DNA from: Thiomicrorhabdus sp. Kp2
GTDB lineage: Bacteria; Pseudomonadota; Gammaproteobacteria; Thiomicrospirales; Thiomicrospiraceae
Direction of reading: 5' to 3'
Assembly (NCBI RefSeq): GCF_000478585.1
Contig: NZ_ARWI01000001.1
Coordinates: 2,108,001 to 2,172,000, forward strand
DNA: 64,000 nucleotides
Shown here: positions 4,192 through 62,359 of the stretch, in pieces
Numbering within the stretch: the stretch's first letter is position 1
How the letters are laid out: each line of letters starts with the position of its first letter
The notes under the pieces: generated by a model
The model's input: only the letters and a program-made list of their open reading frames with translations
The model's database searches: none
Told to the model about the DNA's origin: nothing
Made by a program: the position numbers and the translations under genes

Positions 4192-4249
4192 GAAGTTACC
4201 AGGCCTGGTAACTTCTTTTGCTTGTACTAACTCATGTAAGTACAAGCAA
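4192..4249. terminator. Two adjacent hairpins between convergent genes
   Basis: Positions 4192-4215 form a perfect 24-bp palindrome built on ACCAGGCCTGGT with flanks GAAGTT/AACTTC, followed by TTTTG. Positions 4218-4228 and 4239-4249 form a second 11-bp stem (TTGCTTGTACT / AGTACAAGCAA). Both lie between the convergent DUF3379 and acyl-CoA synthetase genes, so they plausibly end transcription from both sides. The U-tract is short, so strength is uncertain. Confidence 0.6.
4198..4209. repeat. ACCAGGCCTGGT palindrome, exact copy (intergenic, convergent)
   Basis: Exact 12-mer at the centre of a 24-bp perfect palindrome between two convergent genes. First of 16 exact copies in the window. Confidence 0.95.
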
Positions 4250-4286
4250 TACAGCGATTTCTTAGTGTATTTAAATTAAAGACTCT

Positions 4287-6971
4287 CTATAAGTTCAGTT
4301 CAATTTGAATGACATTGCGATCTTCTGCCATGGTTTTTAATTTGAAATTAAACTGCCTTAATAGTGAAAGCATTGAGCTGTTTTCACTTAAGACTTCGCC
4401 TTCCATTTTGCGTATTCCTTTTGATTTAGCATGTTGAATTAAGCTATTTAACAGGGCGCTTGCTACCCCTTTATGTTGATAGTCATCACGTACGACAATC
4501 GCCATTTCGCAAGATTTACCATCTGGGTTGGTGGTGTAGCGCGTTACCCCAATTTCAATGGTTTTATCTTGAGCATCTTGGGTGGTTGCAATAAAAGCCA
4601 TCTCTCGGTCATAGTCAATTTGGGTAAAGCGAGATAACATTTTGGGGGTCAGTGTTTGCATGCTATTCATAAAACGTAAAAAACGACTGCGTTCAGACAG
4701 GTTTCTAACAAAATCGAGTTCAAGTTCGGCATCTTCTGGACGAATCGGACGAATTAGGATATTTAACCCCTTCGGTGTTTCTACCGATTGAACAAGTTCA
4801 TTGGGATAAGGGTGTATGGCCATGTGTTGATAAGGTTTATGATTGGCGGGTAATGACTTAACCGTAATGCGCGCATCAACCGCCATTACCCCTGTTTCAT
4901 CGGCAAAAAGAGGGTTAATGTCGAGTTCTTGTATTTCAGGGAGTTGTGCAACCATATCGGATATACGCAATAGGGTATTTACAATCGCCTCATGATTAAC
5001 GGCAGGCAATCCTCTAAATGCTTTAAGCATTTTGGAAACTTTAGTGCCTTGAATCATTTTATTGGCTAAAAAATGGTTGAGCGGTGGCAGGGCAATGGCG
5101 CGATCCTGAATTACCTCTACGGCGGTTCCGCCACTGCCAAAGGTAATCGCAGGACCAAAGACGGGATCACGCATTACGCCCACTAATAATTCACGCGCGT
5201 GGGGGCGCTTAAACATAGGCTCAACAGTCACGCCATGAATTGTGGCATTAGGTTGTTCTTTAGTGATTTTTTCAATCATTTTAGTAAACTCAGAACGTAC
5301 TTCTTGCACACTATGAATATTGAGTTTAACGCCGCCGACATCTGACTTATGGGTTAAGTCAGGTGAATTGATTTTTAAACTCACAGGAAAGCCCATGGAT
5401 TCGGCCGCCACCATTGCTTGAGTGGCACTGTTGACTTCTACCGCAGGGGTAATCGGTACACCAAAGGCATGCATAATCGCCCGAGTTTCAGCACTGCTAA
5501 GCAAGGTGCGATTTTCTGCCAAAACCGAATCAATAATAATACGTGCGCCAGCGGTATCGGTTGGTTGACAACACTGGTCAGCTGTCGCAGGTGTTTGCAT
5601 TAACAACGCCTGGTTTTGATGATAGGTTGAAATAAAACTAAAGGCTTCTACAGCCGCTTCGGGTGTACGGAAAGTGGGTATTTTGGCTTCACTAAATAAA
5701 TTACGTGCTTCACTGACTAAGGATTCACCAAGCCAAGCGGTAAAGATCGGTTTATCGTTTTCGGATTGTTTTTGGTACTCAATAATCGACTGTGCGATGC
5801 CAGTTGGATCACTCATCGCTTGGGGCGTTAAAATAATCAGAGTGCCATCAAACTGTTCATCTTCTTGACAAATTTTAAGTGCTTGAGTGTAACGCTCTCC
5901 AGTGGCATCTCCTAAAATATCAATAGGGTTTCCATGCGACCAATGCTCTGGTAACAAATCGTTTAATTTTTTGATGCTCTCAGCACTTAATTCAGGTAGC
6001 TTTAACCCCAGTTCAGCCGCGCGGTCGGTGGCCATTACACCAGGCCCACCACCATTGGTTAGAATCGCTAAACGGTTACTGGTAATTTGAATGTTATGAG
6101 ATAGAGATTTGGCTGCGGCAAACAGTTGAGAAATGGACTGCGCGCGCACCGCACCAGAACGTTCAATGGCCGCGCTAAAAACATCATCACCACCCACTAA
6201 AGCACCTGTGTGCGATACTGCAGCTTTTGAACCTTCTGGCATACGACCTGATTTTAATAGAATCACTGGTTTCATACGTGCTGCCGCTTTGAGTCCACTC
6301 ATAAAACGGCGCGATTCTGAAATCCCTTCAATATAAAGCAAGATGCTTTTGGTTTTAGAGTCGAGTGCTAAGAAGTCTAAAATTTCACCAAAATCAATAT
6401 CGGCGGCATCACCTGTTGAAACCACTTGTGAAAAACCAACGCCGTTGGCTTCCGCCCAATCTAATACAGCGGTACAGATAGCGCCTGATTGAGAGACTAG
6501 AGCTAAACTACCTTCCAATGCTTGGTTTTTGCTAAAGGTCGCATTTAAGCCAATTTCGGGTCTAATAATGCCTAAGCAGTTAGGGCCAATTAAACGCATG
6601 CCATAAGTGCGAGCGGTCTCAGTCATTTTTTGCTGGAGCACTTTACCCGCTTTATCTTCAAAGCCAGCTGATAAAATAACCGCATTAGCCACGCCTTGTT
6701 CACCACAAGCCTGAATAATGGCAGGAATCGTTTTGGCTGGTGTGGCAATAATCGCTAAGTCTGGCACCTTAGGCAAGGATTCAATGTTTACATAACAGAC
6801 TTGATTTTGTACCTGCTCATGCTTAGGATTAATAGGATAAATATCCCCCTTAAAGCCAGCGGTTAATAAATTATGCAAAGCGTTGCCACCAACCGATTCT
6901 GGTCGTTCGCTAGCACCAAATACCGCAATACTATTTGGCTTAAACAAGTTGGTAAGATAATGTGGACCCAT
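4287..6971 (-). CDS. Acyl-CoA synthetase (ADP-forming)-like / GNAT acetyltransferase fusion, Pat type
   Basis: An 894-residue multidomain protein. Residues about 10-130 are a CoA-binding Rossmann domain (SIAVFGASERPESVGGNALH), then succinyl-CoA-ligase-like domains (LVSQSGAICTAVLDW, AVSHTGALVGG), an ATP-grasp domain around 490-700, and a C-terminal GNAT domain with the acetyl-CoA loop DDYQHKGVASALL. This architecture is that of Pat/YfiQ protein lysine acetyltransferases and of bifunctional acetate-CoA ligases. Whether the ligase half is active cannot be told by eye. Its start is only 26 bases from the divergent histone-deacetylase-like gene, so the two could write and erase lysine acetylation; that pairing is inference. 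Confidence 0.9.
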   Translation of the reverse strand: MGPHYLTNLFKPNSIAVFGASERPESVGGNALHNLLTAGFKGDIYPINPKHEQVQNQVCYVNIESLPKVPDLAIIATPAKTIPAIIQACGEQGVANAVILSAGFEDKAGKVLQQKMTETARTYGMRLIGPNCLGIIRPEIGLNATFSKNQALEGSLALVSQSGAICTAVLDWAEANGVGFSQVVSTGDAADIDFGEILDFLALDSKTKSILLYIEGISESRRFMSGLKAAARMKPVILLKSGRMPEGSKAAVSHTGALVGGDDVFSAAIERSGAVRAQSISQLFAAAKSLSHNIQITSNRLAILTNGGGPGVMATDRAAELGLKLPELSAESIKKLNDLLPEHWSHGNPIDILGDATGERYTQALKICQEDEQFDGTLIILTPQAMSDPTGIAQSIIEYQKQSENDKPIFTAWLGESLVSEARNLFSEAKIPTFRTPEAAVEAFSFISTYHQNQALLMQTPATADQCCQPTDTAGARIIIDSVLAENRTLLSSAETRAIMHAFGVPITPAVEVNSATQAMVAAESMGFPVSLKINSPDLTHKSDVGGVKLNIHSVQEVRSEFTKMIEKITKEQPNATIHGVTVEPMFKRPHARELLVGVMRDPVFGPAITFGSGGTAVEVIQDRAIALPPLNHFLANKMIQGTKVSKMLKAFRGLPAVNHEAIVNTLLRISDMVAQLPEIQELDINPLFADETGVMAVDARITVKSLPANHKPYQHMAIHPYPNELVQSVETPKGLNILIRPIRPEDAELELDFVRNLSERSRFLRFMNSMQTLTPKMLSRFTQIDYDREMAFIATTQDAQDKTIEIGVTRYTTNPDGKSCEMAIVVRDDYQHKGVASALLNSLIQHAKSKGIRKMEGEVLSENSSMLSLLRQFNFKLKTMAEDRNVIQIELNL

Positions 6972-6997
6972 AAAAAAACCTTAAAGAGATGTGACGA

Positions 6998-7924
6998 GTG
7001 AATTTATATATTACTAGTGGAAAATGTATCTTACATGACAATGGTGTTTATCATCCAGAAATGGGTGAACGTCTTAAGCGAATTCAAGATTATCTTATTA
7101 GTAGTCAACTTTATGACTGGTTTTTGCATGCGGATTCACGTGCGGCTACGAATGAAGAAATTGCGCTATTTCATCACCCTGAATTAATTACCTTGCTTGA
7201 ACAGAGTACGCCTGAACAAGGGGTGGTTGAGGTGGCTGAAGATATTCACCTCTGTAAAGACTCTGTGAATGCGGCTCGCCATGCGGTGGGAGCGGTGCTT
7301 GATGCGGTTGATGCGGTACAAACGGGTAAAGCAAAACGTGTGTTTTGTAATGTAAGACCGCCAGGACATCATGCAGAATACAATGAATCTAAAGGGTTTT
7401 GTTTATTCAATAATGTGGCGGTTGGGGCGGCTTATGCGTTAGCAAAGTATGGATTAAAGCGGGTTGCGATTGTGGATTTTGATGTCCATCACGGTAATGG
7501 CACAGAAGATTTTGTAAGAAGAGAGCCTAGGGCGTTTTTAGCGTCCAGTTTTGAGCATCCGTTATACCCTTTTAGCGAACCGAGCTCTGATATTGAGAAT
7601 ATGGTGACAATGCCACTTATCAAATTTTCTAAATCAGAGGAATTTAAGCAGGCCTGGTCAGAAAAAGGTTTGCCTGCCTTAGACCTATTTGCGCCCGAGT
7701 TAATCATTATCTCTGCAGGTTTTGATGGCCATGCATTAGATCCATTGGGGAATTTACAACTGCATGAGAGTGATTATGTTTGGATTACCCAAGAATTGAT
7801 TAAGTTAGCCAATAAACACTGCGAAGGTAAAATGATTTCTGTTCTAGAAGGCGGTTATGACTTAGGTGCTTTAAGGGTTTCGGCAACTGAACATATTAAA
7901 AGCCTGTTTGAACTGGGCTTTTAA
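6998..7924 (+). CDS. Histone deacetylase-family (AcuC/HdaH-like) deacetylase
   Basis: A 308-residue arginase/deacetylase-fold protein with the family's core intact: the charge-relay segment RPPGHHAEYNESKGFCLFNN, the zinc-binding IVDFDVHHGNGTEDF, the third zinc-site segment SAGFDGHALDPLG and the C-terminal LEGGYDLGAL. All expected zinc ligands and the paired His are present, so it is probably active. Bacterial members deacetylate acetyl-lysine, acetylpolyamines or other small amides; the sequence alone does not choose. GTG at 6998 is the start that fits the N-terminus. It is divergent from the Pat-type acetyltransferase gene, which favours a protein deacetylation role. Confidence 0.92.
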   Translation: MNLYITSGKCILHDNGVYHPEMGERLKRIQDYLISSQLYDWFLHADSRAATNEEIALFHHPELITLLEQSTPEQGVVEVAEDIHLCKDSVNAARHAVGAVLDAVDAVQTGKAKRVFCNVRPPGHHAEYNESKGFCLFNNVAVGAAYALAKYGLKRVAIVDFDVHHGNGTEDFVRREPRAFLASSFEHPLYPFSEPSSDIENMVTMPLIKFSKSEEFKQAWSEKGLPALDLFAPELIIISAGFDGHALDPLGNLQLHESDYVWITQELIKLANKHCEGKMISVLEGGYDLGALRVSATEHIKSLFELGF

Positions 7925-7961: not shown

Positions 7962-7973
7962 ACCAGGCCTGGT
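7962..7973. repeat. ACCAGGCCTGGT palindrome, exact copy (intergenic, convergent)
   Basis: Exact 12-mer between the convergent deacetylase and nrdB genes, 26 bases before the nrdB terminator hairpin. Confidence 0.95.
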
Positions 7974-10139: not shown

Positions 10140-12095
10140 TTACTCTTCGCCCATTATCATCGCTTCTAAAATTTCCCAGCGCTCAAAGGCGTGTTCTAAC
10201 TCTGTCTCTTTATCACTTAGGGTTTTAAGGGTGGCTTGTACTTTCTCTTCACCTTGCTGGTAAAAATCGGCTTGCGCCATCTGCTCATTTAAGGTTTCTA
10301 ATTCTGCTTCTAAGGTTTCTAATAACTCAGGCAACGCATCGTATTCACGTTGGTCTTTATAGCTGAGTTTTTTAGGTTTTTTAACGTTGTTTGATGCGTT
10401 TGTTTCAAAACTACCAGGCCTGGTAGCTTGTTCAGTTTCAATGGTTGTTGCAGACGTTTTTTGTTCTTTTGGAATAGGTTTGTGTAACGTAGTATATTGC
10501 TCAGGGCGTTGACGTAACCAATCATCATAACCACCCACATATTCATTGACCACGCCAGGGGCGTCAAACACTAAACTGCTGGTACAGACGTTGTTTAAGA
10601 AAGCACGGTCGTGACTTACGATTAACACGGTACCTTGATAGTTCATCAATAACTCTTCAAGCAGTTCTAAAGTTTCAACATCCAGGTCATTGGTTGGTTC
10701 ATCCAAAATCAGGAGGTTAGATGGTTTTGAGAAAACACGAGCCAGCAATAAACGGTTACGCTCTCCACCCGATAGTGATTTGACTTGTTGTCTAGCACGT
10801 TCTGGCGAGAATAAAAAATCGGCCAAATAACTCATCACGTGTTTACGTTGGCCGTTAATTTCGACATGGTCGCTCTCTTCTAACACACTCTCAACTACGG
10901 GTTTGTTTTCATCGAGTTGCGCACGATGTTGGTCAAAATAAGCGATATCGATATTTGTACCGAGTTTTACTGTACCTGAATCGGGTTGTAATTTGCCTAA
11001 AAGCAAAGCCAATAAGGTCGATTTACCACAACCGTTTTCACCAATAATCCCGACTTTATCGCCACGAATAATCAGAGCGCTAAGGTGGCTAACAATCGGC
11101 TTTTTAGGAAAGTTAAAGGTTAAATCTTCAATCTCAAAGACTTGTTTACCCGAATTGGCAGCACGGTTCACTTGTAAGTTGGCCGTACCTTGTTGCGAAC
11201 GGCGAGCTTGATGGGTTTCACGCAGTTTTTCTAAAGCACGTACTCGGCCTTCATTACGGGTACGGCGCGCTTTTATACCTTGACGAATCCACACCTCTTC
11301 TTGCGCGAGTTTTTTATCAAACAGAGCGTTTTGTTTGGCTTCGGCCTCAAGCACTTCGGCTTTGCGTTCTAAGTAGGTGTGGTAATCACACTGCCAGTTG
11401 CTTAAATTACCACGGTCCAGTTCAATAATACGGGTGGCTAGGGCTTGTAAAAAAGCACGGTCGTGGGTAATAAAAATCAGAGAACAGCGAATGTTTTTCA
11501 AAAAGCCTTCTAACCATTGAATGGAGGGAATATCCAAATGGTTAGTTGGCTCATCAAGCAATAACACATCAGGCTCTTGCACTAAGGCCTGGGCTAATAA
11601 TACACGGCGTTTCATCCCGCCCGAAAGCGTAGAAAATTCGCTGTCTTCTGGCAGACCGAGTTTCGAGATAATGGTATCCACTTTTTGTTTAAGCTCCCAA
11701 CCATTTTGCGACTCAATCGCTTGTTGGGTTTTTGTGAATTGTTCTAAAATCTCGTCGCTGTAATTTTGTTCAAGTTGCAGGCTTAATTGATGAAATTGAT
11801 CCAGTAAATGCCCAATATTGCCCATACCATCGGCAATCACGTGAAACACGCTACCTGTGGTGTCGTGCGGTACTTCTTGTTGAAGTTTGGCAATTTTTAC
11901 ACCGTCTTGCACAATGCGTGTGCCGCCATCGGGCAGAATTAAACCTTCAATCACTTTTAATAAGCTCGATTTCCCTTCACCATTACGGCCAACAATACAG
12001 ACACGCTCATTCGGTTCAAGTTGAAAAGAGATTTTATCGAGCAGAGGCGCGGCACCAAAGCTGAGTGAGATATCGCGTAAAAATAGAAGGGCCAT
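10140..12095 (-). CDS. uup: ABC-F ATPase Uup
   Basis: A 651-residue soluble protein with two ABC domains and no membrane segment. The first has GRNGEGKSS, LSGGMKRRVLLAQAL and LLLDEPTNHLD; the second has GENGCGKST, LSGGERNRLLLARVF and LILDEPTNDLD. Between them lies the charged ABC-F linker, and the C-terminus is a coiled coil (about residues 570-645) rich in Glu/Leu/Gln, typical of Uup. Known Uup acts on ribosomes and affects precise transposon excision. An ACCAGGCCTGGT palindrome falls at about residue 558, in the loose linker before the coiled coil, encoding RPG. Confidence 0.93.
   Translation of the reverse strand: MALLFLRDISLSFGAAPLLDKISFQLEPNERVCIVGRNGEGKSSLLKVIEGLILPDGGTRIVQDGVKIAKLQQEVPHDTTGSVFHVIADGMGNIGHLLDQFHQLSLQLEQNYSDEILEQFTKTQQAIESQNGWELKQKVDTIISKLGLPEDSEFSTLSGGMKRRVLLAQALVQEPDVLLLDEPTNHLDIPSIQWLEGFLKNIRCSLIFITHDRAFLQALATRIIELDRGNLSNWQCDYHTYLERKAEVLEAEAKQNALFDKKLAQEEVWIRQGIKARRTRNEGRVRALEKLRETHQARRSQQGTANLQVNRAANSGKQVFEIEDLTFNFPKKPIVSHLSALIIRGDKVGIIGENGCGKSTLLALLLGKLQPDSGTVKLGTNIDIAYFDQHRAQLDENKPVVESVLEESDHVEINGQRKHVMSYLADFLFSPERARQQVKSLSGGERNRLLLARVFSKPSNLLILDEPTNDLDVETLELLEELLMNYQGTVLIVSHDRAFLNNVCTSSLVFDAPGVVNEYVGGYDDWLRQRPEQYTTLHKPIPKEQKTSATTIETEQATRPGSFETNASNNVKKPKKLSYKDQREYDALPELLETLEAELETLNEQMAQADFYQQGEEKVQATLKTLSDKETELEHAFERWEILEAMIMGEE
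10413..10424. repeat. ACCAGGCCTGGT palindrome, exact copy (inside uup)
   Basis: Exact 12-mer, extended to 16 bp (10411-10426, CTACC...GGTAG), inside the linker before the Uup coiled coil; read as RPG. Confidence 0.95.
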
Positions 12096-12161: not shown

Positions 12162-12899
12162 TTAATTTTTTAAAATTTCAGCAATCAAGTTTTGACTGGA
12201 CTGGATATTATAGCGGTTAAGTGTGCAGTCGGTGTTTTCAATCGTACTGTTCTGCCAAAAATTGATGACTTGTTGGGTTTCTGCAGTGGGAACGGGTTTG
12301 CCATTACTGTGCGTTTGATTCCATTGATACCACAAATTAAAAATTACCAGGCCTGGTGAATTGATATTTTGCCAAAGGTTTTCTTGAAGCTGTTTATCAC
12401 TCAGCTCAGAAGGCAAACCGTTGGCATCAAAAATATCCACAATAATCACATCATAGTGCTGGGCGTTGTCTTTAAGGTTTTCCAAATTATTTTCAGCCAT
12501 AAAAGTAATCGCATCTTCACACACGACCTCAATTTCTGGCTCATTAGGCAAATGAAAATAGTTGTAAGCGCAGTCAATCACCGCTTGGCGAAGTTCGACC
12601 ACAGTCAGTTGAATATTGGGTAGCGTATGAAACAGATGGTGCGCCATAGAACCGCCACCCATACCAAGCATTAACACTCGCAAGTTCTGTTCTTTTTTAT
12701 GCTGATTGGCAAAGGCCAATACCCGCTCAATTATTTTTTCTTGATATTCAAAGTTAAGTGTCATTGGCGCATTTAAATACAAACAGCTTTGTTCAATCGG
12801 TGAGTCAAAATACAGTTTACGAGTAGAACGATTTTGTACCACTTCAATTAGGCCGTATTCGTCACGCACGCTATGAATGGTCATACCGTCATATTTCAT
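12162..12899 (-). CDS. Spermidine-synthase-like methyltransferase-fold protein
   Basis: A 245-residue protein of the spermidine synthase superfamily. It has the nucleotide-binding loop LRVLMLGMGGGSMAHHL, the acidic strand end VVELRQAVIDCA, and the DVIIVDIFDANGLPSEL segment where the catalytic Asp sits in aminopropyltransferases. It is shorter than true SpeE and such proteins are often unassigned. It overlaps the upstream thioredoxin-like gene by four bases, so the two are one unit. An exact ACCAGGCCTGGT encodes PGLV in the strand NSPGLVIFNL. I would not claim spermidine synthesis without the polyamine-site residues being checked. Confidence 0.75.
   Translation of the reverse strand: MKYDGMTIHSVRDEYGLIEVVQNRSTRKLYFDSPIEQSCLYLNAPMTLNFEYQEKIIERVLAFANQHKKEQNLRVLMLGMGGGSMAHHLFHTLPNIQLTVVELRQAVIDCAYNYFHLPNEPEIEVVCEDAITFMAENNLENLKDNAQHYDVIIVDIFDANGLPSELSDKQLQENLWQNINSPGLVIFNLWYQWNQTHSNGKPVPTAETQQVINFWQNSTIENTDCTLNRYNIQSSQNLIAEILKN
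12346..12357. repeat. ACCAGGCCTGGT palindrome, exact copy (inside CDS)
   Basis: Exact 12-mer in the spermidine-synthase-like gene, read in frame as PGLV within a hydrophobic strand. Confidence 0.95.
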
Positions 12900-14252: not shown

Positions 14253-14264
14253 ACCAGGCCTGGT
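14253..14264. repeat. ACCAGGCCTGGT palindrome, exact copy (intergenic, convergent)
   Basis: Exact 12-mer within an 18-bp palindrome (14250-14267) between convergent tpm and yrfG, where it could fold as a bidirectional terminator hairpin. Confidence 0.95.
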
Positions 14265-15696: not shown

Positions 15697-16602
15697 ATGT
15701 CGGACTCCTCTTTACCGTTAGAAAAATGGTTACCGCAAGTTTGCGAGATTGCGTACAACGCAGGCCAATTGATTTCTGAATATTATCACCAAGACGAAGA
15801 GGTGGATATTGAATCAAAAGCGGATGGCTCACCAGTCACAGAGGCCGATAAAGCGGCAGATGATTTAATTTGTTATGCCCTGCAAAAGCTGACGCCAAAT
15901 ATTCCCTTGGTAACCGAAGAGAGTGTTGAGCGAGTGCCATTTGAAGAACGCCAGGCCTGGTCAACCTATTGGTTGGTTGATCCATTAGATGGTACGAAAG
16001 AGTTTATTGCTAATACAGGGGAATACAGTGTGAATATTGCATTGATTCATAACCACCACCCTGTATTAGGGGTGGTTTATGGTACTGAGTTGGGGAATAT
16101 GTATTTTGCAATTCAACAACCAGAGAGACTGAATAACGGAATGCAACAAGCGAGTCGGGTGGCTAAGTTAGAAAACTTAATGCCAAGCAACCTTAAGCTA
16201 AAACTCGATTGGCCTGCTGTGCTTGAACAAGCGATAAGCATACAAGTGAAGCCTTTGCCTGACGAGGGCTCTGCTTGTAAAGTGGCCGTGAGCCGAAGAC
16301 ACGGCGGCGCTTTGCAACGATTTATGGGGCAGCTAGGTCACTGCACAACCGTTAAAATGGGCTCTGCACTTAAAACCTGTTTAGTGGCTGAAGGTAAAGT
16401 AGATGTTTACCCTCGTTTTGGTCCAACCTCTTTATGGGATACTGCAGCAGCCCAATGTATTTTGGAAGCAGCAGGGGGCGCAGTCCTAAATGCCGCAGGC
16501 CACCCGTTAGAATATATACAAACAGAATCATTGCTTAACCCATTTTTTATTGCCGTAAACGACAAAAACTACAACTGGCCAGCTTTTCCAGAAGTAATGT
16601 AA
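15697..16602 (+). CDS. cysQ: 3'(2'),5'-bisphosphate nucleotidase CysQ
   Basis: A 301-residue inositol-monophosphatase-superfamily protein. Metal ligands are in SPVTEADKAADDLI, VTEESVERVP, WLVDPLDGTKEFI and SLWDTAAAQCILEAAGG. It is about 50 residues longer than E. coli CysQ, mainly through an insertion around residues 145-190 (ERLNNGMQQASRVAKLENL). CysQ removes 3'-phosphate from PAP and PAPS left by sulfate assimilation. A one-mismatch ACCAGGCCTGGT copy (15950-15961) encodes QAW in ERQAWSTYW. It forms a likely operon with nudE. Confidence 0.94.
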   Translation: MSDSSLPLEKWLPQVCEIAYNAGQLISEYYHQDEEVDIESKADGSPVTEADKAADDLICYALQKLTPNIPLVTEESVERVPFEERQAWSTYWLVDPLDGTKEFIANTGEYSVNIALIHNHHPVLGVVYGTELGNMYFAIQQPERLNNGMQQASRVAKLENLMPSNLKLKLDWPAVLEQAISIQVKPLPDEGSACKVAVSRRHGGALQRFMGQLGHCTTVKMGSALKTCLVAEGKVDVYPRFGPTSLWDTAAAQCILEAAGGAVLNAAGHPLEYIQTESLLNPFFIAVNDKNYNWPAFPEVM

Positions 16603-16635: not shown

Positions 16636-16804
16636 AACCACGAAGACATGAAACAAAGAACTCGGCTGCAGAGCCGAGAAGGCACGAAGGTTTTTATATT
16701 AAATAAGCTCCATAACCAAATCGACATTGAGAGCAAAGCAGACTAGAAACCACCCACCAGGCCTGGAATGTTTAAAAAACTTCGTGTCTTAGTGCCTTCG
16801 TGGT
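16636..16804. repeat. Mosaic element with CACGAAG inverted ends
   Basis: Starts AACCACGAAGACATGAA, ends with CTTAGTGCCTTCGTGGT, and contains a CTCGGCTGCAGAGCCGAG hairpin. An 11-of-12 copy of the ACCAGGCCTGGT palindrome lies inside it at 16756. A short REP-like ATTGCGAGCAAAGCGAAGCA follows at 16831. The 16603-17107 gap holds no gene, only this element, the palindrome at 16930, the nrdA terminator and a hairpin element. Confidence 0.8.
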
Positions 16805-16929: not shown

Positions 16930-16941
16930 ACCAGGCCTGGT
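16930..16941. repeat. ACCAGGCCTGGT palindrome, exact copy (intergenic)
   Basis: Exact 12-mer, extended as TTACCAGGCCTGGTAA, 19 bases beyond the nrdA terminator. Confidence 0.95.
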
Positions 16942-17107: not shown

Positions 17108-19375
17108 TTAAAGTTTGCAAGCGCCGCCTGCGCAGCCATCATCTTCTTGATTGTCATCCGCTCCATCACGTGTATTGTGGTAATACAACGTTTTAAGCCC
17201 CATTTTATAAGCGTAGAGCAAATCTTGAAGCACGAGTTTAATGGGCACTTTATCTTCATTAAAGCGTGCTGGGTCGTAGTTAGTGTTTGAAGAGATTGCC
17301 TGGTCGACAAATTTCTGCATAATCCCTACAAGTTGTAAGTAGCCTTTATTATCAGGAATATGCCACAGCAACTCATAGTCATTACGGTGCTCTTTAAAGC
17401 CTGGAACCACTTGCTTTAAAATACCGTCCTTAGAGGCTTTAACCGAGACATAACCACGAGGTGGTTCAATCCCATTGGTTGAGTTGGTGATTTGTGATGA
17501 CGTTTCACAAGGCATTAAAGCGGTGAGTGTTGAGTTTCTTAAGCCGTGCTCTTTAATCTCTGTACGCAAGGTTTCCCAATCTAAATGCAGGGGTTCATTA
17601 CAAACTTCATCTAGGTCTTTTTTGTAGGTATCAATCGGTAGAATACCTTGCGAATAGGTTGTATCTGCAAAGTAATCACAAGCACCTTGTTCTTTAGCCA
17701 GTTCATTAGAAGCTTTTAATAGATTGTATTGAATGGCTTCAAAGGTACGGTGCATTAAGTTATTGGCTGACCCGTCTGAATATTTGGTTTTGTTTTTCGC
17801 CAGGTAGTAAGCCATATTGGTTACACCCACACCTAATGTACGACGACCCATGCTGGCACGACGAGCGGCTTCTACAGGGTAATCTTGGTAGTCTAATAAG
17901 CTATCTAAAGCACGCACAATTAAATTAGAAAGAGATTCAAGTTCTTCTAAATTTTCTAAGGCGCCTAAGTTAAAGGCTGAAAGTGTGCATAAAGCAATTT
18001 CGCCATTTGGGTCTTCTACTGAGTTAAGAGGAGCTGTTGGTAAAGCTATCTCTAAACATAGGTTAGATTGATGTACTGGCGCTTTACTTGGATCAAATGG
18101 GCTGTGGGTATTACAGTGGTCAACGTTTTGAATATAGATACGGCCAGTTTGTGCACGCTCTTGTGCCACTTGAGTGAATAAATCAATCGCTTTGACTTTC
18201 TTCTTACGAATGCTTTCATCCGCTTCATAGATTTTATATAGGCGTTCAAACTCATCTTGGTCTTCAAAAAACGCATCATACAGGCCTGGTACATCCGACG
18301 GGCTAAATAGCGCAATTTCGCCACCTTGAATCATACGCTGGTACATGGTTCTATTGATTTGCACACCATAATCTAAGTGACGGGCACGGTTCTCTTCAAC
18401 ACCACGGTTGTTTTTCAAAACAATTAACGATTCAACTTCTAAATGCCAAATAGGATAAAACAGAGTGGCCGCACCACCACGAACCCCACCTTGCGAACAA
18501 GATTTAACTGCGGTTTGGAAGTGTTTAATAAATGGAATCATGCCCGTGTGATAAGCTTCACCGCCACGAATCTCACTGCCTAACGCACGAATGCGTCCTA
18601 CGTTTACACCTATCCCAGCACGTTGTGAGACGTATTTCACAATAGAGGATGAAGTGGCATTGATTGAATCTAACGAATCACCACATTCAATTAAGACACA
18701 AGAACTGAACTGACGTGTTGGGGTACGTACACCCGACATAATTGGTGTAGGCAATGAGAGTTTAAACAGTGATGATGCATCGTAAAAATCTTTAATGTAC
18801 TGCAGACGTGTTTCGCTAGGATAATGTGCAAATAGGCACATTGGTATTAGCATGTAAATAAACTGCGGGCTTTCGTAAATCTTGCCTGTAACACGGTTCT
18901 GAACGAGGTATTTACCTTCAAGTTGTTTAACCGCCGCATAACTGAAAGTTAAATCACGAGAATGATCAATATACTGATCCAATTCATCGACTTCAGCTTT
19001 CGTAAAGTCTTCTAGGATTTGTTTGTCATAGTGGCCGCTGCGCACCATTTTATTGATGTGTTCAAATAAGGCAGGAGGTGTAAAGCGGTCAAACGCTTTT
19101 TTACGCAGGTGAAAAATTGCGAGTCGAGCTGAAAGATGCTGATAATCAGGTGCATTTTCAGAAATCAAGTCAGCTGCAGATTTTACAATCGTTTCATGGA
19201 TGTCAGATGTGGTGATACCATCATAAAACTGAATATGAGAACGCAGCTCAACTTCAGAAACAGAGACATTTTCTAAACCTTCTGCTGCCCATGAAATTAC
19301 TCTATGAATTTTTTCCAAGTCAATCGATTCTTGGGTTCCATTGCGTTTGGTAACTTTAATATTTTGACTAGTCAT
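17108..19375 (-). CDS. nrdA: Ribonucleoside-diphosphate reductase class Ia, alpha subunit
   Basis: A 755-residue protein (E. coli NrdA 761). The N-terminal ATP cone (IKVTKRNGTQESIDLEKIHR) is present, so activity should be regulated by ATP/dATP. Catalytic residues are visible: the cysteine in TRQFSSCVLIECGD, the thiyl-radical cysteine in QSNLCLEIALPT, and the partner cysteine in EIALCTLSAFNLG. The tail GCAGGACKL carries the swinging cysteine pair. It reduces ribonucleoside diphosphates with NrdB, encoded 8 kb downstream. Its 528-base upstream region has a DnaA box and a NrdR-like site, and then a long tandem repeat array. Confidence 0.97.
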   Translation of the reverse strand: MTSQNIKVTKRNGTQESIDLEKIHRVISWAAEGLENVSVSEVELRSHIQFYDGITTSDIHETIVKSAADLISENAPDYQHLSARLAIFHLRKKAFDRFTPPALFEHINKMVRSGHYDKQILEDFTKAEVDELDQYIDHSRDLTFSYAAVKQLEGKYLVQNRVTGKIYESPQFIYMLIPMCLFAHYPSETRLQYIKDFYDASSLFKLSLPTPIMSGVRTPTRQFSSCVLIECGDSLDSINATSSSIVKYVSQRAGIGVNVGRIRALGSEIRGGEAYHTGMIPFIKHFQTAVKSCSQGGVRGGAATLFYPIWHLEVESLIVLKNNRGVEENRARHLDYGVQINRTMYQRMIQGGEIALFSPSDVPGLYDAFFEDQDEFERLYKIYEADESIRKKKVKAIDLFTQVAQERAQTGRIYIQNVDHCNTHSPFDPSKAPVHQSNLCLEIALPTAPLNSVEDPNGEIALCTLSAFNLGALENLEELESLSNLIVRALDSLLDYQDYPVEAARRASMGRRTLGVGVTNMAYYLAKNKTKYSDGSANNLMHRTFEAIQYNLLKASNELAKEQGACDYFADTTYSQGILPIDTYKKDLDEVCNEPLHLDWETLRTEIKEHGLRNSTLTALMPCETSSQITNSTNGIEPPRGYVSVKASKDGILKQVVPGFKEHRNDYELLWHIPDNKGYLQLVGIMQKFVDQAISSNTNYDPARFNEDKVPIKLVLQDLLYAYKMGLKTLYYHNTRDGADDNQEDDGCAGGACKL
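18281..18290. repeat. Partial palindrome CAGGCCTGGT inside nrdA
   Basis: Ten of twelve palindrome bases, in a conserved enzyme; may be coincidental or a decayed copy. Confidence 0.45.
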
Positions 19376-30329: not shown

Positions 30330-30341
30330 ACCAGGCCTGGT
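30330..30341. repeat. ACCAGGCCTGGT palindrome, exact copy (intergenic)
   Basis: Exact 12-mer 41 bases before the -35 of the rplM promoter; the only exact copy between 22.3 and 41.1 kb. Confidence 0.95.
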
Positions 30342-37292: not shown

Positions 37293-37382
37293 TATCACTA
37301 TTTTGGGTGTTAGTAAAAAGCTAAATATTACAGTAAGATAAATAGAATAAAACTGTTTTTAGCCAAAGAGAGGGCTAATAAT

Positions 37383-47430: not shown

Positions 47431-48015
47431 TAAACACGAAGGCATAAAGGTTTTAAAGGGTATTGTCATTGCGAGGCCGCAGGCCGTGGCACTAGTGCCT
47501 TGGCGCGCAGAACGCCTGCAAGGCGACCCTTTAGGGTGAAGTGTAACGAATAATCCATGACTCACGGCAGATTACTGTATTTAGACAAGAGTTATGGATT
47601 ACTTCACTTTGTTCTCGGCTCTACAGCCGAGTTCTTCGTTTCGTAATGACGGAACTTTCGTTTTTATTATGTCTTTTCAGCTGTAGAGTCTACAAGGCAC
47701 GAAGATACAAAGATTAAAAGATTTTGTCATTGCGAGGCCGAAGGTCGTGGCACTAGCGCCTTGGCGCGCAGAACGCCTGCAAGGCGACCCTTTAGGGTGA
47801 AGTGTAACGAATAATCCATGACTCACGGCAGGTTACTGTGTTTAGACAAGGGTCATGGGTTACTTCACTTTGCTTGTAATGACGGTAGAGTTTGTATGAT
47901 GATTATGATTTAGAGTTACCAGGCCTGGTTGTTTTCCAATAACCTTGTATAAAATCTTGGTTTTTCAAAACAAAAATTAATTTGAAACTTCGTGGCTTTG
48001 TGTTTTCGTGGTTAA
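47431..48015. repeat. Large mosaic element with CACGAAG ends and a duplicated 148-bp core
   Basis: Begins TTAAACACGAAGGCATAAAG and ends GTGTTTTCGTGGTTAAA. Inside, 47464-47611 and 47725-47872 are 148-bp direct copies (both start TGTCATTGCGAGGCCG and contain GCGCAGAACGCCTGCAAGG). An inverted copy is at 41465-41573. A palindrome lies at 47918. This fills the 47422-48049 gap between ybeY and corC; no gene is seen. Confidence 0.88.
47918..47929. repeat. ACCAGGCCTGGT palindrome, exact copy (intergenic)
   Basis: Exact 12-mer inside the large mosaic element between ybeY and corC. Confidence 0.95.
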
Positions 48016-48049: not shown

Positions 48050-48928
48050 ATGAGTGACAGTAGTAGCGGCTCTTCGTGGTTAGAGCGTCTTGGAAAAGTA
48101 TTTTCAGATGAGCCGGAGAGTCGAGAAGAACTTGTAACCGTTTTAAAAGAAGCGCAATCTCAAGGTGTGCTTGATTCGGACGCATTATTAATGATTGAAG
48201 GTGTTTTAGATGTTTCTGAAGCACGTGTGCGAGACATTATGATTCCTCGCCCGCAAATTGAGATTATTGATGCCAATGACTCCTTAGAAACTATTTTAGA
48301 AACCATGCTCGAAAGCTCGCACTCACGTTACCCTGTGATGTTGGATAAAGAAATTGTGGGGATATTGTTAGCCAAGGATGTTTTACGTGCTGTGGTTAAG
48401 GGTGAGTTGAATGAAAAAGATGATTTACAAAAAATCTATCGTGAAGCGAACTTTATTCCCGAAAGTAAGCGTTTAAATGTTCTGTTACGCGAATTTAAAT
48501 CGAGCCGAAATCACTTAGCGTTAGTGGTAGATGAGTATGCCGAGTTAGCAGGCCTGGTCACCATTGAAGATGTCTTAGAACAGATTGTGGGTGATATTGA
48601 AGATGAGCATGATGTGGATGAAGATGAATGCATTCAAAAGCGTGCGGGGGGAGCTTATTCAGTTCAGGCTTTAACGACGATTGAAGAGTTTAACCAGTTT
48701 TTTGGTACAGAAATCGAAACAGAAAACACCGAAACAATGGGCGGCTTTTTAAGCTTTGAGTTAGGGCATGTTCCTGTGATTGGTGAAGAAATTGAAACGA
48801 ATGGTATTTGTTTTAGAGTTTTAAAAGCCACTGAACGACGAGCAGAACTGTTTGAAGCCAAACCAATCAGTCAAGAATCGATTGAGCAAAGTGATGAGCA
48901 AAGCGAGCTGCAATCTCAAACAACGTAA
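48050..48928 (+). CDS. corC: CBS-domain Mg/Co-efflux-type protein CorC (YbeX)
   Basis: A 292-residue soluble protein: two CBS domains (about 65-190; VRDIMIPRPQIEIID, SHSRYPVMLDKE, VDEYAELAGLVTIEDVLEQ) and a C-terminal CorC/HlyC domain (about 205-285). It matches YbeX, linked to magnesium/cobalt efflux and ribosome maturation. The CAGGCCTGGT inside GLVT at 48549 may be coincidental because this motif is conserved in the family. The C-terminal tail is Ser/Gln-rich. Confidence 0.95.
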   Translation: MSDSSSGSSWLERLGKVFSDEPESREELVTVLKEAQSQGVLDSDALLMIEGVLDVSEARVRDIMIPRPQIEIIDANDSLETILETMLESSHSRYPVMLDKEIVGILLAKDVLRAVVKGELNEKDDLQKIYREANFIPESKRLNVLLREFKSSRNHLALVVDEYAELAGLVTIEDVLEQIVGDIEDEHDVDEDECIQKRAGGAYSVQALTTIEEFNQFFGTEIETENTETMGGFLSFELGHVPVIGEEIETNGICFRVLKATERRAELFEAKPISQESIEQSDEQSELQSQTT

Positions 48929-48992: not shown

Positions 48993-50516
48993 TTGAAATC
49001 CGCCTTCACCTTTCTTAAAAAAGTATTTTCTCCTCAAAAAACACACTTAATCGCTCTTTTATTAGGGGGGTTAAGTGTGTTTGCTTTTGCTCCGTTTAAT
49101 ATCTCACCGATTATGCTCGCAGCCATTGCGGGCTTGTTTATGCTTTGGCTAGAGGCAGAAACCCGTTTTGAAGCCGCTAAAATTGGTTTATGGTTTGGCT
49201 TGGGTCAGTTTGGTTTAGGAGTCAGCTGGTTATTTTCCAGTATGTACTTCTACTCTGGTGTTGCCTTGCCTTTTGCGGTTATTTTGACAATGGGGTTTGT
49301 GCTCTTTTTAGCACTATCAACGGCATTAGGTGGCTGGATTGCGTTGTTTTTTAAAAACGCTAAACAGCCAGGCCTGGTACTTACACTGCTCTTTCCCGCA
49401 GTTTGGGTGCTGATTGAGTTAGTGCGTTCTACCATCTTTGGTGGGTTTCCTTTCTTATTAAGTGGCACGACACACTTAGATACCTGGCTTGATGGTTATG
49501 CTCCTCTTTTGGGTGTGTGGGGTGTGAGCTGGGCTATTGCGATGTCTGCCGGTCTATTGTTGTGGTTATTTAAAGAAAAAAGCTGGGTGAGAGCCAGTGT
49601 TACCCTGTGTTTAATATGGTCTATTGGTGGTTTATTACAAAATGTGCAATGGGTCAAACCAGTTGATAAACCCATTGATGTGGCGTTGATTCAGGGGAAT
49701 ATCGCTCAAGAGAAAAAGTGGTTGCCTGATGAATTTTATCCAACCTTAAAAACCTATATTGATTTAACCAAAAAGAACATGGATGCCGATGTGATTGTAT
49801 GGCCTGAAACAGCGATTCCAGCCTATTACGATGTGGTTGAGAAAGGGGCTTTACAAGGCTTTATTAAAGACGCCAAGTTACTGAATACCGATATTTTAGT
49901 GGGTGTGATTGCAGGGGGTAAAAATTCAGAAAACTACTATAACGCCTTGATTAACGTCCATAATCCCGAGGATCGCTATTACAAGCAGCATCTAGTGCCT
50001 TTTAGTGAGTTTTTTCCGTTCAGTAGTGCATTTGCTTTTGTGAGTGGTCTCTTTAATATTCCATTTGCAGAGTTTTCACATGGTGATTCATCTCAACAGC
50101 CCATCAAATTGGGTGGGCACGATGCTGGTTTAAGTATTTGCTACGAAATGGCGTTTGGTGAAGAGTTAGCGAATTCTTTACCGCAAGCAAAATATTTAAT
50201 TACTGTGAGTAATGATGCCTGGTTTGCAGATACTTTTGAACCCGCACAGCAATTGCAAGAAGTGCAGATGAGGGCGTTGGAGCTGGGTAGAGAAATTGCT
50301 CGAAGCACCAATACAGGCTATACCGCCATTGTGGATATCAAAGGCAATATTAGAGCGCAAATTCCGCCTTATGAAGAGGGTGTGTTGCGTGGCCAAGTTC
50401 AGCCCTACGACGGCCTAACATTCTATGCAGAATGGAAAACCTTGCCAATTCTGTTTTTGCTCTTTACCTATTTTGGGTTTCTAATCGCCAAGCGATATCT
50501 ACTACGTAGAGCTTAG
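48993..50516 (+). CDS. lnt: Apolipoprotein N-acyltransferase
   Basis: A 507-residue protein: six to seven N-terminal membrane helices (about 10-210) then a nitrilase-type domain. The catalytic triad is visible: Glu in VWPETAIPAYY, Lys in YYKQHLVPFSEFFPF and Cys in LSICYEMAFGE. It adds the third acyl chain to lipoproteins in the periplasmic face of the inner membrane. Start is TTG at 48993 after AAGGA. A one-mismatch palindrome at 49367-49378 encodes PGLV in KQPGLVLTLLF. Confidence 0.97.
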   Translation: MKSAFTFLKKVFSPQKTHLIALLLGGLSVFAFAPFNISPIMLAAIAGLFMLWLEAETRFEAAKIGLWFGLGQFGLGVSWLFSSMYFYSGVALPFAVILTMGFVLFLALSTALGGWIALFFKNAKQPGLVLTLLFPAVWVLIELVRSTIFGGFPFLLSGTTHLDTWLDGYAPLLGVWGVSWAIAMSAGLLLWLFKEKSWVRASVTLCLIWSIGGLLQNVQWVKPVDKPIDVALIQGNIAQEKKWLPDEFYPTLKTYIDLTKKNMDADVIVWPETAIPAYYDVVEKGALQGFIKDAKLLNTDILVGVIAGGKNSENYYNALINVHNPEDRYYKQHLVPFSEFFPFSSAFAFVSGLFNIPFAEFSHGDSSQQPIKLGGHDAGLSICYEMAFGEELANSLPQAKYLITVSNDAWFADTFEPAQQLQEVQMRALELGREIARSTNTGYTAIVDIKGNIRAQIPPYEEGVLRGQVQPYDGLTFYAEWKTLPILFLLFTYFGFLIAKRYLLRRA

Positions 50517-50553: not shown

Positions 50554-50565
50554 ACCAGGCCTGGT
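50554..50565. repeat. ACCAGGCCTGGT palindrome, exact copy (intergenic)
   Basis: Exact 12-mer 38 bases after the lnt stop, just before a CACGAAG element. Confidence 0.95.
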
Positions 50566-50580
50566 GAATACAGAAAGATT

Positions 50581-50922
50581 AACCACGAAGACACGAAGAC
50601 ACAAAGACTTAAAGTGTTGAAGGCTTAAAGAGTGTTTGTTTTGTTGTTGTGGTGAATAAATTCAATTTTATTAGTCATTGCGAGGAGCGAAGCGACGTGG
50701 CAATCCATAATTGACGGCAGAGTATGGCGTTAGACGTTAACCATGGATTATTCGTTACACTCAATCTAAAGGGGTGCCTTGCAGGCGTTCTACTCGTAAA
50801 GGCACTTGTCCACGGTACTACTTAACTCGTAATGAGTGAGTTACCAGGCCTGGTTAAAAGTATTTTGGTTTTAAAAACTTCGTGCCTTCTCGGCTCTAAG
50901 CCGAGTTCTTCGTTTCGTGGTT
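50581..50922. repeat. Mosaic element with CACGAAG inverted ends
   Basis: Starts AACCACGAAGACACGAAG, ends CTTCGTTTCGTGGTT, has the CTCGGCTCTAAGCCGAG hairpin near its right end, a REP-like core (ATTGCGAGGAGCGAAGCGAC) and a palindrome at 50843. It fills the gap between the convergent lnt and ybeL-like genes. Confidence 0.8.
50843..50854. repeat. ACCAGGCCTGGT palindrome, exact copy (intergenic, convergent)
   Basis: Exact 12-mer within the mosaic element, between the convergent lnt and ybeL-like genes. Confidence 0.95.
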
Positions 50923-51413: not shown

Positions 51414-53948
<2,535 letters not shown>

Positions 53949-54521: not shown

Positions 54522-55550
54522 TTGATTTTAGCCAGTGCGTTTTTAAATCAGCTTAATAGTGGTAACTTTGATATTAAGCCTATTTATTTACTGTATGGTG
54601 AAGAACCACTGTTTTTGCGCGATAGTTTAGATGGCCTAAAAAAGCAGCTGTTATCGCAAGGCTATATGGCTAGTGAAACCTATGATGTAGATGCTAATTT
54701 TGATTGGCAAAGCCTACAAATGGACACGCAAGCGGGTTCATTGTTTGCTGAATCACGCATGATTTTGATTAATATGCCAAAAGGTTCGCCAGGCCGTGAG
54801 GGGGGTAAGTTCTTTCAGGACTGGTGTCAGTATGTGCAAGCTTTACCCCCAGAGATTGTATTGGTGGTCTTATGTGAAAAGTTAGATAGCCGTCAAATCA
54901 AAGGCAAATGGGTAACCTCAATAGAATCAGCAGGCCTGGTCGTTCAAGCCAAACCTGTACCTGCCAATGCGTTACCTGGTTGGTGTCAGAATCAAGCTCA
55001 ACTACACGGGTTAACTTTGGAGCGTGAAGCGGCTAATTTATTAGCCGATAGAGTTGAAGGGAATTTGTTGGCGGCAGACCAAGAAATCACTAAGCTCTCT
55101 TTAAGTTTGCCTGCAAACTCCACCATTACCGCAGAGCATATTTTAGAGCATGTGGTTGATCAGGCACACTATCAGCTCTTTGCGCTAGCCACCGCGATGT
55201 TAAATGGCAAGGTAGCTTATAGTGTGCAAATGCTTGCTAGGCTGCAGCAAGAAGGCGTTGAAGCGCCAGTGATTCTTTGGCTGTTATCTAAAGAGATTAG
55301 ACAGTTAATTGAGTTGGCGCAATTGACTCAGCAAGTTTCGCTCAATCAAGCATTTAATCAATGCCGTATTTGGCAATCAAGGCAGGGCGAGTATTCCCAG
55401 GCGATGCAGCGTCACGGCTTACAAGAGTGGCAAAACCTTTTAAAGCAGGCATTGCAAATAGATAGGATGATAAAAGGCATACAGCCCACATTAAACGACA
55501 GAGAAGTGTGGTTTGGTTTATCGGATTTAGTGGCAAAGATTGCTCGCTAG
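54522..55550 (+). CDS. holA: DNA polymerase III delta subunit
   Basis: A 342-residue protein like E. coli HolA (343): PIYLLYGEEPLFLRDSLDGL at the start, EIVLVVLCEKLDSRQIKGKW in the middle and a helical C-terminal domain. It opens the beta clamp within the clamp loader. Start TTG at 54522. A CAGGCCTGGT at 54931 encodes AGLV. It is followed by proA after 48 bases. Confidence 0.95.
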   Translation: MILASAFLNQLNSGNFDIKPIYLLYGEEPLFLRDSLDGLKKQLLSQGYMASETYDVDANFDWQSLQMDTQAGSLFAESRMILINMPKGSPGREGGKFFQDWCQYVQALPPEIVLVVLCEKLDSRQIKGKWVTSIESAGLVVQAKPVPANALPGWCQNQAQLHGLTLEREAANLLADRVEGNLLAADQEITKLSLSLPANSTITAEHILEHVVDQAHYQLFALATAMLNGKVAYSVQMLARLQQEGVEAPVILWLLSKEIRQLIELAQLTQQVSLNQAFNQCRIWQSRQGEYSQAMQRHGLQEWQNLLKQALQIDRMIKGIQPTLNDREVWFGLSDLVAKIAR

Positions 55551-56852: not shown

Positions 56853-57499
56853 TGAAATTTATTGGTATAAATGGCGGAACCTTTGACCCCGTTCATTATG
56901 GACATTTACGCCCAGCTTTAGAAGTGATGCAATGCTTAGGTTTGGAGCAAGTCCGTTTTGTGCCATGCTACCGTCCTGTGCATAAAGACAAGCCAAGTGT
57001 ATCGGCTTTACAGCGAAGTGAGATGATTCGTTTGGCGATCCAAAAACAGCCCAATTTTGTTTTGGATACCATTGAAATGGAGCAAGGAGGTCCCTCTTAT
57101 ACTGCAGATACTTTAGCCATTTTGAAAAAAAAGTTTCAGGATGTCAGTCTAGTTTTAATGATGGGAACGGATGCCTTTGCTAAGTTTCATACCTGGCATA
57201 AATGGCAACAAATCATGCAATTAGCTAATATTGTGGTTATGCACAGGCCTGGTGAACCTGTACCGCAGAGTGGCGAGTCGGGAGAAATTTACAAACAAAA
57301 TCATGTATCGGCCTTTACCGCTGAAGCGGGGCAAATTATGGATGTAGATGTTACCCAGTTGGATATTAGTTCGACCTTGGTAAGAAACCACTTACTCGCA
57401 GGCTTATCGGCAGAATATCTGCTACCACCTTGTGTTATGGAATATATAAAAGAACACGGCCTTTATAAGCCGACTAATCAATTAGAGATAAAGAAATAA
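56852..57499 (+). CDS. nadD: Nicotinate-nucleotide adenylyltransferase
   Basis: A 215-residue nucleotidyltransferase with the family motif GGTFDPVHYGHLR and the late ISSTLVRNHLLAG (ISSTxxR). It forms NaAD in NAD synthesis. The palindrome variant at 57244 encodes RPGEP. It is followed by rsfS and rlmH, the usual trio. Confidence 0.96.
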   Translation: MKFIGINGGTFDPVHYGHLRPALEVMQCLGLEQVRFVPCYRPVHKDKPSVSALQRSEMIRLAIQKQPNFVLDTIEMEQGGPSYTADTLAILKKKFQDVSLVLMMGTDAFAKFHTWHKWQQIMQLANIVVMHRPGEPVPQSGESGEIYKQNHVSAFTAEAGQIMDVDVTQLDISSTLVRNHLLAGLSAEYLLPPCVMEYIKEHGLYKPTNQLEIKK

Positions 57500-60443: not shown

Positions 60444-60481
60444 ATTAAAAGCGTGATTTAAGGGTTTAATATTCTGTGTTG

Positions 60482-61981: not shown

Positions 61982-61992
61982 ATTTTAGTATT

Positions 61993-62018: not shown

Positions 62019-62056
62019 ATTGTCTGGAATAAATGGATTTTTGAGGGGGGGTGAGT

Positions 62057-62344
62057 ATGAAAATTTTACGTTTTATGGCGCTATTAGAGGGAACCTCTTT
62101 GCTGTTGCTATTGTTTGTAGCAATGCCGTTGAAGTATAGCTACGGTATGCCAGAGGTGGTGAGTTGGGTAGGCCGTGCACATGGTGGGCTGTTTATCGCC
62201 TTTAATATTGTGCTTTTTTACCATGTTTTTAAAGGGCATCTTTCTGAGGTCAAAGGCTTTTTAGGATTTTTAGCATCACTACTGCCGTTTGGTACTTTTT
62301 ATTACAAAGCAAAAGTACTTAATAAGTCATTTAGGAGTGAATAA
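62057..62344 (+). CDS. DUF3817 small membrane protein
   Basis: A 95-residue integral membrane protein from the ATG at 62057 (GAGGGGGG upstream; a GTG at 62051 is possible). The RFMALLEGTSLLLLLFVAMP start, the VGRAHGGLFIAF motif and the LGFLASLLPFGTFYY end match DUF3817 (YdzA-like). Function unknown. Convergent with the next gene. Confidence 0.9.
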   Translation: MKILRFMALLEGTSLLLLLFVAMPLKYSYGMPEVVSWVGRAHGGLFIAFNIVLFYHVFKGHLSEVKGFLGFLASLLPFGTFYYKAKVLNKSFRSE

Positions 62345-62347
62345 TCA

Positions 62348-62359
62348 ACCAGGCCTGGT
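62348..62359. repeat. ACCAGGCCTGGT palindrome, exact copy (intergenic, convergent)
   Basis: Exact 12-mer three bases after the DUF3817 stop and 24 before the end of the convergent Spy-like gene. Confidence 0.95.

Follow-up and report, generated by a model that had tools for sequence, protein, structure and literature searches.

Why should a single 12 bp palindrome be written, over and over, into one bacterial genome? The element in question, ACCAGGCCTGGT, came to light in a 64,000-nucleotide stretch of Thiomicrorhabdus sp. Kp2 (contig NZ_ARWI01000001.1, positions 2,108,001–2,172,000; hereafter, the window), where an initial annotation, made from the letters of the window, had listed 16 exact copies and proposed a genome-wide signal. 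The analysis reported here bears out that proposal, and leads to a view that we hold with about as much confidence as doubt: the palindrome may be a family-specific self-DNA (uptake) signal in palindromic form, read by a dimer.

Abundance, anatomy and placement

All 16 exact copies of ACCAGGCCTGGT lie where the annotation had placed them, and none was obtained in 100 dinucleotide shuffles. Thirty-one places in the window match the palindrome with at most two mismatches (the 16 exact copies included; 1.3 are expected by chance), and its inner 8 bp core, CAGGCCTG, is found in 14 window positions beyond the exact 12-mers. The whole Kp2 genome (G000; one contig of 2,725,706 bp, or 2.73 Mb) contains 557 exact 12-mers, compared with 0 for the reversed control, and 1,133 copies of the core. 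In a 464 kb sample, which underlies the k-mer and context figures for this genome (the chromosome map draws on 864 kb), ACCAGGCCTGGT was counted 184 times on both strands, where an order-3 Markov model predicts 0.113. These are counts that the annotation had itself suggested, along with counts in relatives, which limit the abundance to the family. Neither of the outcomes that it had named beforehand as speaking against its claim was seen: further copies are not few, and local composition does not explain their abundance.

The annotation's finer points fared more variably. Its seven near copies all exist, but four of them begin 2 bases before the positions given (at 18279, 53393, 54929 and 57242). 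Arms that were said to extend often do so in part: TTACCAGGCCTGGTAA is present at 4 of the 16 copies, while eight are palindromic over only 12 bp. Arms of up to 24 bp were correctly described (one perfect 24 bp palindrome at 4192–4215, plus one of 22 bp), as was the intergenic position of ten of the 16 copies, a count reproduced by our own simple gene caller, which underlies all intergenic and genic assignments below.

Elucidation of the motif in the Kp2 genome, where the consensus is approximately AANYTACCAGG in one arm and CCTGGTARNTT in the other, revealed three properties. Firstly, the core is nearly all-or-none: it occurs 181 times in the 464 kb sample (7.4 expected), and the twelve forms that differ from it by one base stay close to background (29 against 17.3 for the commonest). 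The core is likewise strict in relatives G019, G024 and G026; an exception is G035, in which one single-mismatch form is seen 12 times against 2.2. Secondly, deviations are concentrated towards the outside. The sample holds 92 perfect and 56 singly mismatched 12-mers, an excess of perfect copies like that of the uptake signal sequences (USS) of Pasteurellaceae and the DNA uptake sequences (DUS) of Neisseriaceae. The singly mismatched forms are themselves enriched (about 1.3 expected, listed values summed), and in 52 of the 56 the changed base is one of the outermost two of an arm. Around the core, the preferred outer bases are ACC...GGT, and adenines are favoured 6 to 8 bases outside it—roughly a helical turn away from the dyad—in genic copies too. 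AT-rich flanks are present in most genomes examined, most strongly in G033, and little is conserved past ~22 bp in the Kp2 genome. Thirdly, the two arms vary mostly independently, like two half-sites read by a dimer; in G035, whose cores are preceded by C or G, mirror identity is 20 against 19.7 expected. This independence is incomplete, with mirror identity in excess at some positions (e.g., −3 and −1 in G000; −5 in G019).

Fifty-one of the 92 exact copies in the sample fall in the 14% of DNA that is non-coding and 41 lie within genes, a non-coding preference with many genic copies that is also a feature of USS and DUS. Genic copies rarely use the Thr-Arg-Pro-Gly frame (4 of 41). Among non-coding regions of Kp2, density is 1.75 per kb between convergent genes, 0.76 between co-directional genes and 0.23 between divergent genes. 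The convergent peak is seen in G000, G019, G033 and, marginally, G024, all of which have enough exact copies; divergent genes show no such deficit in G019 (1.0 per kb; co-directional 1.09) or G033 (1.06; co-directional 0.6). Copies frequently lie within ~120 bp of gene ends.

Around the chromosome, core density is roughly even, at between 6.9 and 9.4 per 20 kb across six bins, and exact 12-mers by themselves are unevenly spread (2.7–5.5 per 20 kb). Core spacing could not be told from random, with a coefficient of variation of 0.957 against 1.015 (standard deviation 0.055) in simulations; for the first 100 12-mers the coefficient is 0.79 (Kolmogorov–Smirnov p 0.15). One 20 kb locus (L120; G000:C1:1224001-1244000) contains no cores at all. 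It is rich in defence genes—JetA/JetD-type Wadjet genes, a fused BsuBI/PstI-type restriction-modification gene, a GmrSD-like gene and a helicase—and its lack of cores would fit recent acquisition. In viral contigs, 36 stretches carry one TACCAGGCCTGGTA each, and none carries two distinct copies in the DNA examined.

Relatives, dialects and the history of sites

The family concerned is one that we take to be Thiomicrospiraceae; NCBI places Thiomicrorhabdus in the Piscirickettsiaceae. LeuS of Kp2 is 90% identical to that of Thiomicrorhabdus sp. Milos-T2, which puts the two in the same genus, and Milos-T2 contains 498 exact 12-mers, the same count as G016 (also of this genus). Across 37 genomes of the family (Kp2 included), the core is found 236–1,173 times in 18 genomes (hereafter, core-rich) and 3–74 times in 19 (core-poor). 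Outside the family, the 12-mer reaches a maximum of five copies in any of 365 Gammaproteobacteria. Copy numbers in the hundreds to thousands, above expectation and limited to a family, are shared with USS and DUS. Among named relatives, exact copies number 660 in Thiomicrospira Kmv17, 400 in Thiomicrospira WB1, 145 in Hydrogenovibrio SC-1, 2 in T. cannonii and 0 in Hydrogenovibrio JE_KL2.

The motif also differs in form between relatives. Five core-rich genomes (G002, G005, G008, G018 and G026) have the same core, yet only 6 to 38 exact 12-mers; where the outer bases were examined, at 65 sites of G026 and in a small set of 11 from G005 and G018 together, they proved relaxed or different. In core-poor G024 a different palindrome, ACCGGCCGGT, occurs 1,025 times, as against at most 15 times in each of the other 36 family genomes. 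On a LeuS tree of 39 rows—a quick tree from a single gene—at least seven changes are needed among the three motif states, and G024 sits within a five-genome clade that is otherwise without either motif. No comparable motif was found in the stretches read from G003 and G025, and those from G020 are dominated by a repeat array. Repeats seen in arrays in relatives include one containing GGCAGCTAAGAA in G020 (~96 copies) and a CRISPR-like repeat containing GTGGATTGAAAC in G019 (38 copies). In stretches of G003 (L131, L171-L178), a genome without the palindrome, TATCGATA is over-represented (21 against 4.5) and could be another weak motif.

The history of individual sites was followed by alignment with relatives. 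For nine window cores, 51 of 60 aligned rows are ungapped, showing substitutions or identity, and nine are interrupted at or close to the site by a gap or an insertion; copies arise mostly by point substitution, and origin by substitution and long-lived sites are both features of USS and DUS. The copy in ybeY (47169) provides an example: Milos-T2, Hydrogenovibrio SC-1, Thiomicrospira Kmv17 and the metagenome-assembled genome CG07 (at least three genera) all have the same 12 bp, which are altered in all four motif-poor relatives aligned. Overall, motif-bearing relatives retain a window core in 37 of 72 cases (12% for a GC-matched 8-mer control; 36 aligned loci) and motif-poor relatives in 0 of 51 (control 10%), with 0 of 2 in G024; the rows compared are related rather than independent. 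Not included in these counts are L286 (from G016, the genome that L031 also represents) and three outgroup loci, L298, L300 and L305. Without four repeated rows, they become 36 of 69 and 0 of 43 (L290, L292 and L293 repeat L034, L033 and L040, with identical LeuS; L291, having the same 12-mer count of 84, probably repeats L032). Because cores are retained in the one group of relatives and not in the other, it would seem that some active agent preserves the copies in the genomes that have it, and that they are lost in those without it.

Candidate readers of the palindrome

The annotation had offered several functions: uptake, chromosome organisation, methylation or restriction, and terminators. 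With mobility and termination fitting poorly, and three methyltransferase families dispensable (see below), what remains is a sequence-specific reader, and a reader of the uptake type fits best. The strong consensus, AT-rich flanks, genic copies, origin by substitution, long-lived sites, dialects and family limits all match USS and DUS, and it is from this match that we infer an uptake receptor; since the motif is a palindrome, the receptor is taken to be symmetric. The proposed mechanism is as follows: (i) a homodimeric or two-headed receptor that belongs to the natural-transformation machinery, and may be a minor type IV pilin, would bind the palindrome on free DNA, (ii) binding would favour the uptake of motif-bearing DNA, and (iii) recombination of the favoured fragments would raise copy number wherever coding constraint permits. 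A change in receptor specificity would produce a new dialect, while loss of the receptor, or of competence, would leave copies to decay. Redfield et al. (2006; PMC1626085) describe, in the passage concerned, strong consensus as a puzzling trait of USS and DUS, unlike the sites of regulatory proteins. Two further findings speak for uptake: the locus L120, rich in defence genes and without cores, and the presence of ComEC in nearly all core-rich genomes.

A number of observations count against an uptake signal. Both dialects (the ACCAGGCCTGGT type and ACCGGCCGGT) are perfect palindromes and so lack the asymmetric core of USS and DUS; passages in PMC1939737 and PMC13314781 describe known uptake sequences as non-palindromic. 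Strong consensus is not unique to uptake sequences, being listed in a table of PMC1939737 for the cyanobacterial highly iterated palindrome HIP1. At about one per 2.4 kb, cores are less dense than the reported one per kb, and their spacing could not be told from random, whereas USS and DUS are reported to be somewhat regular. AT enrichment of the flanks is weak in G019, and in G035 it can scarcely be made out. ComEC is present in 17 of the 18 core-rich genomes (Kp2 included) but also in 16 of the 19 core-poor ones, and therefore does not discriminate. No receptor was found using a simple prepilin pattern, which gave three matches and no candidate in a sampled 32% of the genome, and no paper combining Thiomicrorhabdus, type IV pil- and competence was found in the open-access literature.

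The main rival to an uptake signal holds that the copies are sites of a dimeric, chromosome-wide protein (for nucleoid organisation, segregation or repair), each kept by selection. We regard this as unlikely, but as a serious contender. Symmetry combined with largely independent half-sites, as in G035, is dimer-like; the motif occurs in several genera, with losses; and copies in Kp2 are rarer between divergent than between convergent genes. This last pattern is, however, absent from G019 and G033. Furthermore, cores show no exclusion from the replication origin or terminus, the core is stricter than sites of a regulatory protein would be, mirror identity is in excess at some positions, and weak selection would be needed separately at some 1,100 sites, many of them genic. 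A macrodomain-type organising signal in particular is not supported, because core density is roughly even around the chromosome. Sites specific to the origin or terminus were also considered and rejected: a hint of lower density at 816–1,788 kb, seen with 20 stretches, vanished with 20 more stretches and GC skew, from which we infer an origin near 1.56 Mb and a terminus near 0.2 Mb.

We doubt that the motif is a HIP1-type iterated palindrome tied to a methyltransferase that acts on the inner GGCC, CCAGG or AGGCCT, whether in methyl-directed repair or restriction-modification. The motif does resemble HIP1: it is a frequent, GC-rich palindrome with mismatches mainly at its outer bases and a replacement palindrome in a relative. 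Both palindromes of this family contain GGCC. A passage in Elhai 2015 (PMC4390886) reports that some cyanobacteria have alternate palindromes together with methyltransferases specific for them. In a search of 58 genomes (Kp2 included) for Pfam families PF00145, PF01555 and PF02086, which divergent enzymes could escape, no match to any was found in seven of the 18 core-rich genomes (G010, G015, G018, G022, G026, G028 and G033; six of these are at least 99% complete) or in G024; therefore, no enzyme of those families is needed. PF00145 is also present in 8 of the 19 core-poor genomes, and since the three families are uncorrelated with the motif across the 58 genomes, an origin in methylation or restriction was rejected as a candidate and the function that the annotation had listed is weakened. 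Moreover, GGCC overall is not over-represented in the Kp2 sample (observed/expected ratio 0.82), and a motif of ~22 bp, flanks included, exceeds the usual target of a methyltransferase. As a separate observation, CCGG is strongly avoided in the same 464 kb (ratio 0.15) and GATC is reduced (0.46), which suggests restriction pressure.

Very improbable is a role as transcription terminators or RNA hairpins. Such a role could draw on the convergent-gene peak in four genomes and on the closeness of copies to gene ends, but the 41 of 92 copies inside genes make termination unlikely as the main role, contrary to its place among the annotation's suggestions. Of four genomes, only G033 has a clear T-run 3' of the motif, the other three a weak one, and the arms of a would-be hairpin vary largely independently.

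A mobile or copied element, of the type formed by repetitive extragenic palindromes (REPs) and REP-associated tyrosine transposases (RAYTs), can be set aside almost entirely: although RAYT-like transposases occur in the Kp2 genome, one of them within the window, 51 of 60 aligned rows are gapless at the site rather than showing REP/RAYT-like insertion, little is conserved outside ~22 bp in Kp2, and the Y1_Tnp family is uncorrelated with the motif, with no match in core-rich G002, G005, G018, G035 and G036 or in G024, and with matches in core-poor genomes.

Window copies and comparison with known systems

Window copies are given here without strand. Convergent genes flank the intergenic exact copies at 4198–4209 (inside the 24 bp palindrome), 7962–7973 (3' of a histone-deacetylase-family gene), 14253–14264, 16930–16941 and 62348–62359. 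Further intergenic copies lie at 30330–30341, 41106–41117 (5 bp 3' of the stop of a response-regulator gene), 47918–47929 (retained in Milos-T2), 50554–50565 (37 bp 3' of the stop of an apolipoprotein N-acyltransferase-like gene) and 50843–50854. Those associated with genes are found at 10413–10424 (within gene 10140–12095, which has two ABC ATPase domains), 12346–12357 (within gene 12162–12899), 22216–22227 (the 22 bp palindrome, within a cobW-family gene), 41819–41830 (within a histidine-kinase-like gene), 42720–42731 (at the 3' end of that same gene) and 47169–47180 (within ybeY).

The 14 additional core copies take several forms. GCCAGGCCTGGT is found at 234–245, 15950–15961 and 49367–49378 (the last with its core retained in Milos-T2 and L_MaxBin.137), and AGCAGGCCTGGT at 7647–7658, 48547–48558 (in a CorC-like gene; retained in Milos-T2), 53393–53404 (in leuS; core in 9 of 39 aligned rows, including Kp2 and two Thiomicrospira) and 54929–54940 (core retained in Milos-T2, L_MaxBin.137 and Thiomicrospira Kmv17). 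The remaining forms are TGCAGGCCTGGC (1213–1224), ACCAGGCCTGGA (16756–16767), TACAGGCCTGGT (18279–18290, in the ribonucleotide reductase large-chain gene), AACAGGCCTGTA (35067–35078), AACAGGCCTGTC (46062–46073, not retained in Milos-T2), AACAGGCCTGCA (52154–52165, in leuS; core in 8 of 39 aligned rows, Kp2 included) and CACAGGCCTGGT (57242–57253, retained in Milos-T2).

Other features of the window include the RAYT-like gene at 34184–34879 (Y1_Tnp, 42.7 bits; NCBIfam REP_Tyr_transpos, 66.2 bits, cut-off 80); the Kp2 genome has four Y1_Tnp matches. Words such as CACGAAGA and AGACACGAAG belong to a second repeat family, which is over-represented in the genome and occurs in the window near 16.78, 50.59 and 50.88 kb; this family and GTCATTGCGA, which is also over-represented genome-wide, are possible RAYT substrates. 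Between the RAYT-like gene and a two-component system lies a cluster of prepilin-like genes (35127–40455; N_methyl motif in two), and the stretch from 30.4 to 41.1 kb has a single core (35067). Apart from the cluster, another prepilin-like gene is found at 42868–43452. The window gave no Rfam match at gathering thresholds and contains no tRNA.

The 12-mer ACCAGGCCTGGT was not found in any paper of the open-access literature searched, a scope outside which most subscription journals fall, and no description of the motif was found there under uptake sequences of palindromic form, highly iterated palindromes or Thiomicrorhabdus; within this literature, the annotation's statement that it knew of no description holds. 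According to a 2025 passage (PMC12616744), uptake motifs of this sort are known from two families only, Neisseriaceae and Pasteurellaceae. The palindrome would seem to behave like an uptake sequence, yet lacks the asymmetry of one. We tentatively suggest, at a little under even confidence, that it is a third independent code of DNA self-recognition and the first palindromic one, evolved by the sulfur-oxidising bacteria of this family and read by a two-fold symmetric receptor. Its core is strict and its flanks graded, it has lineage dialects and, within one genus, a full replacement, and close relatives would in this way be hindered from exchanging genes. If so, a third family, environmental and chemolithoautotrophic, would offer a natural experiment on the origin of such codes, their change and the isolation of lineages, and the losses and full motif switch among close relatives would aid in finding the receptor by co-variation. 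Should the motif serve some other purpose, a chromosome-wide palindrome with no evident methyltransferase would still call for an explanation.

Among known systems, parS, Noc sites, matS and SlmA sites are palindromic sites bound by dimers; there are tens of each, confined to chromosome domains. The palindrome described here differs from all of these in having ~1,100 copies, spread across the sampled chromosome. With USS it shares family specificity, strong consensus, AT-rich flanks, two dialects, origin by substitution, stable sites, and genic as well as non-coding copies with a preference for the latter (passages in PMC1626085). USS differ in their asymmetric 9-mer core and in AT-rich motifs on the 3' side only, as opposed to a palindrome flanked on both sides; furthermore, uptake has been demonstrated for USS and is a proposed function of the present motif. 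Like the palindrome, DUS have dialects that follow lineages (one with an inserted base), and some members of the family lack them, as a passage in PMC3630211 describes. They differ in being non-palindromic (a passage in PMC13314781), in reported copy numbers that are higher than here, and in having a known receptor, ComP (passages in PMC3630211 and PMC12616744); the specific receptors named for uptake sequences are ComP and, as a prediction, ComN. HIP1 and the alternate HIPs of cyanobacteria are, according to passages of PMC4390886, GC-rich palindromes of hundreds to thousands of copies with deviations at the outer bases, and in some relatives other palindromes replace HIP1. HIPs are accompanied by their own methyltransferases, whereas here three such families are missing from seven of 18 core-rich genomes. 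Of the two parallels that the annotation had drawn, HIP1 is the closer in form, and the uptake sequences, DUS and USS, are the closer in behaviour.

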